From Sphingopyxis panaciterrulae (lineage in GTDB: Bacteria > Pseudomonadota > Alphaproteobacteria > Sphingomonadales > Sphingomonadaceae): 64,000 bases of DNA. Below, in pieces: positions 6,220 through 50,392 of this stretch. Made by a program: the position numbers and the translations under genes. The first letter of the stretch is position 1. Each line of letters opens with the position of its first letter. The notes under the pieces were generated by a model. That model searched no databases. It worked only from the letters and a program-made list of their open reading frames with translations, and was not told the DNA's origin. The DNA is taken from contig NZ_JACIJH010000001.1 in NCBI RefSeq assembly GCF_014199295.1, positions 744,001 through 808,000 of the forward strand. The letters are read 5' to 3'.

Positions 6220-6322
6220 CGTCACCCTGAACTTGTTTCAGGGTCCATGGCCTGCCCTTGAATACGGCGCGGCGCCGAAGGAGAGACCCGGCCATGGATG
6301 CTGAAACAAGTTCAGCATGACG
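6220..6322. repeat. Intact REP-type palindrome (CTGAACTTGTTTCAGG family)
   Basis: An inverted repeat opening with CGTCACCCTGAACTTGTTTC and closing with the complementary GCTGAAACAAGTTCAGCATG motif, containing CCATGG on both arms. It lies between the divergent receptor and patatin genes. The copy near 32815-33066 is the same repeat interrupted by a MITE, so this copy serves as the uninterrupted (empty) site. Confidence 0.85.
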
Positions 6323-32592: not shown

Positions 32593-33239
32593 ACGGGGGG
32601 CTCCGGTTGGGGTTGCGGGGGCAAGCTAGGCATTGGGGCGGAGGGAGGCAAGGGGTGGGGACGGAACGGCGCTTCGCGTGGAACGATGATTCCCCGTCAT
32701 TTCGGGCGGTGATGCCGTTTGCAAGCAGGAGCGTGATTTGGTGGTGGGTCAGTTTGAATTTCCGTCTGTGTATGGTTTGCGCTGTGTGTGGTTCACGCGC
32801 TTCTCTTTTCCCGTCACCCTGAACTTGTTCGGCGCTTATCGCTTTCGCATCCGTAATCCCGTCATTGCGAGCGGAGCGAAGCAATCCAGAGCGGTTTGCG
32901 CGCACTCTGGATTGCTTCGCTCCGCTCGCAATGACGAAGTAAGGAGGCTTACGGATGCCAAGGGTATAATTGCCAACTTGTTTCAGGGTCCATGGCCTGA
33001 GGTTTCGACGAACGCAGCGCCGGACGAGAGAGCTGGCCATGGATGCTGAAACAAGTTCAGCATGACGAAGAAAGAGACTGGCTCTATTAATCCAGGCGGA
33101 AATTCAAACCGACCCACTACCCGTGATTTTGCCTTCTTCGTCACCCCGGATCAAGTCGAGGGTGGCGGGATAGCTGCCGGCCCACCTCGCTTCGAGCGGG
33201 CGGACCGTGTTAGGGAAATAAAGCGCTTGCCATGGATGC
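32593..33239. other. Gene-free stretch of repeats between ABC-F and blaI genes
   Basis: No convincing gene is found. The left part, to about 32810, shows nothing recognisable. The rest is a REP of the CTGAACTTGTTTCAGG family (about 32812-33066) interrupted by a MITE-like element, followed at about 33140 by a partial CCCCGGATCAAGTC REP. Confidence 0.7.
32830..32974. mobile_element. MITE-like element, copy A (145 bp), inserted in a REP
   Basis: The element runs from CGGCGCTTATCGC to GGGTATAATTGCC. Its ends are imperfect inverted repeats (about 22 of 29 positions, including a shared GCATCCGTAA). Its centre is a palindrome with two perfect 32-bp arms (32860-32891 and 32905-32936). It is flanked by the 8-bp direct repeat AACTTGTT at 32822-32829 and 32975-32982. 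Removing the element and one repeat restores the intact REP seen at 6220. It encodes no protein, so any transposition would need a transposase from elsewhere. Confidence 0.8.
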
Positions 33240-40740: not shown

Positions 40741-40748
40741 GGTCAGGT

Positions 40749-40914
40749 CGACGCTTATCCCCGCGACATCCCTATGGCGTCATTGCAACCCCGGCGAAAG
40801 CCGGGGGAAGCCATCTCCAGCTATCGTCCCGCCTTGCCGATGGCTGGAGATTGCGTCGTCGCTCCGCTCCTCGCAATGACGAATGGGACTATGGATGGTG
40901 CGAGGATAATCGCC
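40749..40914. mobile_element. MITE-like element, divergent copy C (166 bp)
   Basis: The ends CGACGCTTATCCCCGCGACA and GGTGCGAGGATAATCGCC are imperfect inverted repeats and match the ends of copies A and B in outline. The interior starts GGCGTCATTGCAAC and ends CGCAATGACGAA as in the other copies but is diverged. Flanks are GGTCAGGT (left) and GATCAAGT (right), a decayed 8-bp duplication inside a CCCCGG-TCA-GTCCGGGG REP. It ends about 160 bp before the GTA cluster. Confidence 0.6.
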
Positions 40915-40949
40915 GATCAAGTCCGGGGTGACGAAAGGAAGGGTGCTTG

Positions 40950-49777: not shown

Positions 49778-50392
49778 TGGGGTTTCGGGGCGAGGGTTGG
49801 GAGAGGGCGCGTCCGGCAGGCCCCCCTCTCCAGCTTCGGCTAGGCAGCAAGCTGCCAAGCCTCCCTATCCTTTCCCCTGAAGGGGAGAGGGATCACGCCC
49901 AGCCATCCGCCCCGCTCTCGGCACGAACGGGATGGACGCGACGAAATGGCGGGAAGGGGGTGGGGAGCGGACAACCCCCACCTTCGTCATCCCGGACTTG
50001 ATCCGGGATCCCGCTTCTTGAGCACCGACTGGCTTTGATTTTCAGCGGGACCCCGGATCAAGTCGGCGCTTATCGCTTTCGCATCCGTCATCCCGTCATT
50101 GCGAGCGGAGCGAAGCAATCCAGAGCGGTTTGCGCGCACTCTGGATTGCTTCGCTCCGCTCGCAATGACGAAGTAAGGAGGCTTACGGATGCCAAGGGTA
50201 TAATTGCCGATCAAGTCCGGGGTGACGATGACTGGATGGCCGCAACCGGTCGAAGCCGGACGGCCCGTTTTCCATCGGGTTACAGCGAATATCGGTCAAT
50301 CGAATTTGTCCAGGCCGCCTGGCGGGCAAGCTCGCAAGCCTGTTTATCTCTCCCCTGAAGGGGAGAGAGCGTGAACCCGGACCGGCGCCGGC
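49778..50392. other. Repeat-filled gap inside the GTA cluster
   Basis: No gene is found. In order it holds a two-part repeat (GGCAG-CAAG-CTGCC near 49841-49854, hairpin CCCCTGAAGGGG near 49875-49892), a TCCCGGACTTGATCCGGGA REP near 49989-50008, the MITE-like copy B inside a second such REP, and another two-part repeat near 50330-50372. Confidence 0.8.
50064..50208. mobile_element. MITE-like element, copy B (145 bp), inserted in a REP
   Basis: This is identical in length to copy A and differs at one base that I can see (CCGTCATCC for CCGTAATCC). It is flanked by the 8-bp direct repeat GATCAAGT at 50056-50063 and 50209-50216. Excising it rebuilds the REP CCCCGGATCAAGTCCGGGG. The near-identity of A and B suggests recent movement. 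Confidence 0.8.

Follow-up and report, generated by a model that had tools for sequence, protein, structure and literature searches.

The 64,000-nucleotide stretch of Sphingopyxis panaciterrulae DNA analyzed here (the window) contains four intact REPs and three that are occupied by a short element. This raises the question of what the elements are, which enzyme moves them and what directs them to REPs. The relevant features are listed below.

6220-6322, no strand: intact REP1 dimer of the kind interrupted by copy A, cores at 6227 (-) and 6301 (+)
32822-32830, + strand: left target duplication of copy A, AACTTGTTC
32831-32974, + strand: MITE copy A, 144 bp, ends GGCGCTTATC...GGTATAATTGCC
32860-32936, no strand: interior of copy A, a CGTC-tagged REP dimer, CGTCATTGCGAG...CTCGCAATGACG
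32975-32983, + strand: right target duplication of copy A, AACTTGTTT, 8/9 identical to the left copy
33046-33060, + strand: intact partner core in the REP dimer interrupted by copy A, CTGAAACAAGTTCAG
40741-40749, + strand: left flank 9-mer of copy C, GGTCAGGTC
40750-40914, + strand: diverged MITE copy C, 165 bp, ends GACGCTTATCC / GGCGATTATCC
40915-40923, + strand: right flank 9-mer of copy C, GATCAAGTC, 7/9 match
49992-50006, - strand: intact partner core in the REP dimer interrupted by copy B, CCGGATCAAGTCCGG
50056-50064, + strand: left target duplication of copy B, GATCAAGTC
50065-50208, + strand: MITE copy B, 144 bp
50209-50217, + strand: right target duplication of copy B, GATCAAGTC, 9/9 identical to the left copy

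Copies A and B are 99% alike, start with GGC and end with GCC, and 18 of the 24 positions in their terminal inverted repeats agree. The equal length, near-identity and imperfect inverted repeats described in the first-pass annotation are borne out. The length given there, 145 bp, has to be corrected to 144 bp, and the direct repeats, read as 8 bp, are in fact 9 bp long (9/9 in B, 8/9 in A). The differing base in the duplication of copy A explains both earlier values. Nine is the correct number since the ninth base belongs to the target in other duplicated copies and is identical on both sides, namely T in REP1 insertions and C (T in L007) in REP2 insertions. At 144 bp the element is too short for a transposase gene, as expected of a MITE. 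A scan of the window with Rfam returned one tRNA and nothing else.

The duplication is centred on the REP dyad. The annotated targets of A and B, the centres of REPs from two families, were recovered at the same dyad position in both, and copy C is indeed a diverged copy with a decayed duplication, located in a REP2 palindrome. The REP at 6220-6322 had been put forward as an empty site for copy A; it is an intact paralogous site but not the earlier state of the locus of A itself. CGTC REPs are characterised by the CGTC tag, a stem of 8-9 bp, a loop of 4-5 nt and a CCA tail. Both target consensus REPs fold in this way, the stem having 8 bp and the loop 5 nt, and the 9-bp duplication comprises the loop and two stem base pairs on each side. 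The single REP in the interior of the element folds less neatly; its stem is interrupted and its loop only 3 nt long. This interior palindrome is also found alone elsewhere in the genome, and related MITEs of other species contain either the same palindrome or another one (CCCCGGCGAAAGCCGGGG) between similar ends. Since the MITEs carry REP dimers, they may build new REPs where they land.

Copies, target sites and empty loci in Sphingopyxis

BLAST against the draft genome of the strain (4.43 Mb, 35 contigs) identified 15 near full-length copies (40 of 86 first-look candidates were scored) as well as many matches to the interior palindrome alone. All 15 copies are placed in REPs at a fixed position, the behavior of a REP-specific IS of type 1 in the scheme of Tobes and Pareja. 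Twelve of them are flanked by the duplication expected of a mobile MITE, ten with 9/9 and two with 8/9 matching positions (8/9 in L011). The remaining three have hybrid REP flanks: in L003, REP1 is joined to REP2, and in L014 and L015 the flank 9-mers are inverted copies of each other (9/9 and 7/9, respectively). The genome has 184 intact REP cores (0 with a reversed-pattern control), which at 9 bp each amount to 0.04% of its length. Random placement of 15 out of 15 copies has a log10 P of about -39, allowing for 400 REPs of 29 bp, and chance is thus excluded.

Pattern searches that were blind to the target added four diverged copies in the same genome (C1:601664, C3:28295, C4:108561, C10:404) and 12 copies in six other Sphingopyxis genomes (six in G002, two in G001 and one each in G352, G355, G358 and G373). 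In total, 28 of 31 copies are located in a REP or half-REP, a count that leaves out copy C of the window. Several of the 28 have decayed or inverted 9-mers; C4:108561 has a REP on one side only and C3:28295 a truncated end. Exceptions are L103, L106 and L310, which lie outside REPs, and the specificity is therefore not strict across the genus. A search with the terminal inverted repeats only, covering 298 genomes of the family, gave matches in 12 genomes and was accepted for the strain itself and G002 only; ten matches (L093-L101, L104) were rejected, having no second end in the 260 bases examined. The combined target-plus-end pattern matched 17 of 80 genomes. It is biased towards REPs by design and was excluded from all target counts; of the 30 loci read, several (L125, L128-L130, L132, L134, L141) resembled chance matches and lacked a second end. 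In six plasmid records no match over 80% of the element was found, the best ones covering the interior palindrome.

The inverted-flank copies (L014, L015, C1:601664, L305, L307) look like a MITE that spans from one REP centre to the partner centre and has lost its middle. Recombination of two insertions or intramolecular transposition, in each case across one REP dimer, could, by inference, have given rise to the hybrid and inverted flanks; both fit. Read by eye, about six of the 15 copies (L008-L011, L013, L014) have the loop of the interior REP dimer (CGGTTTGCGCGCA) in the opposite orientation with respect to the element ends, as though the palindrome were inverting.

The two genes flanking copy B are conserved across many Sphingopyxis genomes. 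From longer lists, 11 orthologous loci were read for copy B and seven for copy A. In two of the 11 (L293, L288), these genes enclose an intact REP2 dimer that lacks the element. In L293 (G023), the joined flanks of copy B align across both REPs, and in L288 (G361) the REP dimer is more diverged. The other nine have no REP core within two mismatches near the junction, and in L290 the left gene is missing. None of the seven copy A loci has a core within one mismatch, and only L297 shows any left flank, which makes this set uninformative about an empty site. According to the first-pass annotation, a lack of direct repeats in most copies or a general absence of empty sites would have refuted mobility. 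Neither applies, given that 12 of the 15 copies keep the 9-bp duplication at 8/9 or better and that these two copy B loci are empty. Many near-identical copies, unrelated flanks, duplications and the dyad position agree with the small non-coding mobile element homing to REP centres that was proposed.

IS1595 transposons and their two target classes

One match of the target-plus-end search, L144 in G001, lacks the internal palindrome. This transposon measures 3,014 bp, is flanked by GATCAAGTC at either end and encodes a transposase of the IS1595 family (PF12762, 3.4e-36; NF033547, 6.9e-56). Transposase matches were found in 32 of 80 genomes of the genus, and a scan of named genomes yielded 384 IS1595 relatives, of which 80 loci were kept. 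An element of Sphingopyxis italica DSM 25229 (L266, the same element as L186) is 2,419 bp long with a AAACAAGTT duplication. Relatives thus carry transposons of 2-3 kb that have similar ends and are flanked by 9-bp duplications in the same REPs.

The ends of A and B match those of a group comprising L273, L270, L237, L187 and L186 at 38-39 of 48 positions, compared to a maximum of 24/48 among 2,000 random window pairs. In principle, the MITE could be moved by a different DDE family that makes 9-bp duplications. The IS903 group of IS5, which makes 9-bp duplications and prefers palindromic targets, was the first idea on account of the duplication length and the GGC ends. It was dropped in favor of IS1595 because of the end matches and because IS1595 elements of relatives use the same REP targets. 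The IS5-type transposases of the genome were outside the survey, and a mover of this kind is considered improbable.

A zinc ribbon combined with a DDE transposase is shared with the IS1595 family (PF12762/PF12760; NF033547). Passenger genes are a trait of this family; open reading frames of 224, 222 and 158 aa are present in L152 and of 277 and 161 aa in L266. The five had no match in Pfam, and the four that were queried in NCBIfam had none there. A sequence comparison of the transposase with the PDB gave no relative. The AlphaFold model of the L266 transposase (pLDDT 88.6) gave only weak matches with Foldseek, the best being ISCth4 (E 1.2e-4, TM 0.38).

For target classification, 100 IS1595 loci were assembled from the 80 kept loci and 20 of an earlier search, with L192 left out and L152 included. 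Four duplicates (L210, L213, L218, L266) and the near-twin L195 were removed from trees, leaving 95 distinct loci. Both ends and the duplication could be mapped in 76 of these, and 19 remained unlabelled. The latter include L249, L250 and L272, whose 9-bp pairs were set aside by hand as chance; their inverted repeats match at 13-16 of 25 positions and no palindrome is present, compared to at least 20 in labelled 9-bp elements. L188, with a broken transposase gene, was retained as class N.

Two classes are apparent. Class R (14/76) has 9-bp duplications in palindromes, and class N (62/76) has 8-bp duplications elsewhere. The 8- and 9-bp registers align differently, and a chance extension cannot make one look like the other. 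Thirteen class R elements are found in REP1/REP2-type palindromes, 12 with a CTTG/CAAG loop and L214 with CCTG; the arms are complementary at 6/6 positions in 11 of them and at 5/6 in L214 and L215. The exception is L199, in a different and weaker palindrome (4/6 arm positions). L196 and L202 are near-twins. REP1 or REP2 was not seen in the examined flanks of the 62 class N elements. In six of the 62 class N targets (L184, L190, L221, L226, L245, L276), nevertheless, the arms are complementary at 5 or 6 of 6 positions, whereas about 0.3 would be expected by arithmetic, so a preference for dyads is not exclusive to class R and may be general.

Class N elements are frequently found beside SOS-type boxes. 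An exact GAACN7GAAC or GTTCN7GTTC box, which we take to be the alphaproteobacterial LexA operator, is present within 50 bp of 25 of the 62 elements, compared to 4 of 2,380 controls and none of the 14 class R elements. In 19 of the 25, the near edge of the box lies about 8-12 bp from the centre of the duplication. With one mismatch allowed, the numbers rise to 35/62 and 162/2,380 (control). Within 1.5 kb of the 62 elements, a recA homologue is encoded in 14 cases and lexA in five (both at L276), mostly directly adjacent; NCBIfam confirmed one gene of each kind, and the others were identified by BLAST against these two. Loci of the 8-bp class that were noted individually for SOS-type boxes are L187, L228, L238, L251, L256, L258-L261, L274 and L276, among others.

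The restriction to REPs could also result from selection or availability, if insertions elsewhere were lost or if the REP class occurred only in REP-rich hosts. REPs are mostly intergenic and presumably safe, and some MITEs outside REPs do exist. The insertions, however, are at one position within the REP and not scattered over intergenic DNA. Availability fails to explain the classes because hosts of 8-bp elements have REPs too: 41 intact cores were counted in G026 (host of L187), 49 in G353 and 43 in G378. Such an explanation has little left to support it.

As to the parent of the MITEs, shared ends and a duplication length found in IS1595 (9 bp, 14/76) are present, and a transposase in the same genome is not. 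The draft genome contains no PF12762 match at E<=0.01 and no protein match at 1e-20. Since no IS1595 transposase was found, the copies look orphaned; that an active enzyme is unseen beside the MITE in this genome bears on its present autonomy, not on its descent. Elements of both classes occur in the group whose ends are closest to those of A and B, and the closest ends to those of C are mostly class N. The assignment of the MITEs to class R therefore rests on target and duplication length. Judged by homology, the probable transposase is one of the IS1595 family, and ends, duplication length and target mark the MITE as an IS1595 derivative whose movement is inferred and which is apparently orphaned here. 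The first-pass annotation spoke of a distinct mobile system; it is not an independent one, as its ends and targets match IS1595 transposons of relatives.

Recurrent sites were also observed in other hosts. In Erythrobacter-type hosts, L223, L233, L235, L239 and L240 have a target in common, AAATCCTA or ATTTCCTA adjoining CTTGTCTAGGAAAAAT, which in L240 is on the other strand. In two Sphingopyxis genomes, different IS1595 elements occupy apparently the same chromosomal site with 8-bp duplications (L183/L210, L185/L218).

Central transposase segment and target choice

The part of the transposase that tracks target class was located by nearest-neighbour class prediction in 40-residue segments of 77 sequences including L195 (14 R, 63 N, of which 62-63 N were scored); segment numbers run 3 residues ahead of the L152 protein. 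Segments up to residue 120 predicted only 2-6 of 14 class R elements correctly. Those at 161-200, 181-220 and 201-240 were correct for 13-14 of 14 R and for 62 of 62 scored N, with 14/14 and 62/62 (63 labelled) at 181-220. The full-length sequence gave 12/14 and 57/62. The same picture emerged from trees: a tree of residues 132-245 requires three label changes (shuffle mean 13.0, minimum 10) and one of residues 1-128 requires 11 (mean of 500 shuffles 13.1). The N-terminal tree is itself slightly non-random, with 25 of 500 shuffles at or below 11.

Pairs of closely related elements with different targets are consistent with this. The transposases of L186, in a REP, and L187, at recA, are identical at 124/125 N-terminal, 50/104 central and 49/51 C-terminal positions (99, 48 and 96%). 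At the DNA level, the two outer parts are 91% and 89% alike, and the middle part between them has no match. For L208 (N) and L204 (R) the respective protein values are 87, 45 and 86%. In the main group (11 R, 59 N; L152 numbering), S147 is found in 11/11 R and 0/59 N, and M185 in 11/11 R and 1/59 N. In L266 the diagnostic residues are S148, Y156, M186 and F205-G206. The model places the diagnostic positions in three regions, namely a loop of low confidence that follows the first catalytic strand, a helix, and the stretch immediately behind the second catalytic D; the catalytic residues were assigned by motif.

From the centre, two of the 19 unlabelled loci were called R (L203, L197) and 17 N. 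L203 had not been examined before its call; its only visible end follows CCCGGATCAAGTC, although by N-terminus its closest neighbour is an N element. L197 lies in a CCCTCCCTGAAG palindrome; it is no independent test, as its flanks had been seen earlier and an R element is its closest neighbour by N-terminus as well. Among the ends seen at the 17 loci called N there is no REP flank, although some of these loci have no convincing visible end.

Within this set of sequences, residues ~130-240 are correlated with target class far better than the N-terminus is. The link is a correlation without bench data, and the R centres of the main group may share one ancestor. On balance, the evidence leans slightly towards an exchangeable target module in IS1595, located at residues ~130-240 of the catalytic domain. 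Recombination would swap it between lineages and so switch elements between two kinds of target, sites next to the LexA (SOS) boxes in front of recA/lexA (8-bp stagger) and REP hairpin loops (9-bp stagger), the MITEs exploiting the REP module.

Proposed mechanism and related systems

Copy number, duplications, position at REP centres, empty copy B loci and IS1595 transposons of relatives with the same 9-bp REP targets are direct observations; the mechanism beyond this anatomy is inferred. A class R transposase would bind the ~24-bp ends of the MITE and place it in the hairpin loop of a CGTC-tagged REP, with two cuts 9 bp apart that are symmetrical about the dyad. It may have moved the present copies by cut-and-paste or copy-paste and would now be absent from this genome. 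The target would be set by the central segment of the catalytic domain (~130-240), presumably exchanged between transposase lineages by recombination. The overall reading, in which A, B and C are IS1595 MITEs, a class R transposase inserts into CGTC REP loops and target choice resides in an exchanged central segment, is given a probability of roughly 0.87.

Two further explanations take the REP content of the element as their starting point. A RAYT/TnpA-REP (IS200/IS605-like) enzyme, as thought to act on REPINs, might move an element that contains a REP dimer and sits in REPs. To our knowledge, IS200/IS605 enzymes make no target duplication. The 9-bp duplications and GGC...GCC inverted ends are marks of a DDE transposase, and the tag is CGTC, unlike the GTAG tag and missing duplication of REPINs. 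CGTC REPs are moreover reported without an associated transposase gene in the available part of PMC3733652, and the idea is very doubtful. Least tenable of all is a longer REP or BIME, a 144-bp composite spread with host REPs and without insertion: the REP dimer of the interior is also found on its own in this genome, but perfect 9-bp duplications at the same position in two REP families with otherwise unrelated flanks, the empty copy B orthologues and the use of these targets by autonomous transposons that have similar ends contradict it.

Insertion of IS into REPs is known for elements of the IS3, IS110 and IS4 families (Tobes and Pareja 2006, PMC1525189, consulted in part). As with the MITE, all copies of such REP-targeting IS are found in REPs at one position, and ISRm22 is located at the axis of palindromy and likewise has copies with hybrid duplications. 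In the accessible portion of that paper, the specific cases have duplications of 0 to 6 bp where given and include no MITE, in contrast to the IS1595 origin, the 9 bp and the REP-carrying non-autonomous elements described here. Its Table 1, as available, has no specific IS1595 case, with values of 2/17 for IS1016 and 1/3 for IS1016C2. Duplications of 8 bp for ISApl4 and of 7-9 bp for IS1016 elements are quoted in an excerpt of PMC12561309, where ISApl4 is described as preferring A/T-rich 8-mers; the REP class, in contrast, has 9-bp duplications in REP dyads. Both the target REPs and the interior of the MITE share the CGTC tag and the CCA tail with CGTC REPs (Di Nocera et al. 2013, PMC3733652). 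As far as the available text of that study goes, CGTC REPs have no transposase association, whereas here class R of IS1595 uses them as insertion targets.

The literature consulted contained no description of IS1595 in REPs or beside SOS boxes; an earlier account, e.g. Siguier 2009, is not excluded. Nor was a REP-centre-specific MITE or a central segment that tracks target class found there, with the same reservation. A REP-homing MITE of IS1595 is a variant on the known theme of IS insertion into REPs, and the novel part is the swappable target module, which is correlational. CGTC REPs, described as lacking a dedicated transposase, gain a class of DDE transposons that land there. Target choice by DDE enzymes is still poorly understood, and natural chimeras with the same ends, N- and C-terminus but a different centre and target make it testable by a single segment swap. 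Compact site-selective transposases are useful tools.

A nested arrangement of MITE, REP and IS is also known from QMITE2 and IS1111 of Coxiella (cited in the review PMC10969869). There the IS enters a REP inside the MITE, whereas here a REP-carrying MITE enters REPs. A separate case of nesting was observed in G022 (C44), where the broken IS1595 element L188 is apparently inserted in a CCCCGGCGAAAGCCGGGG-type MITE.
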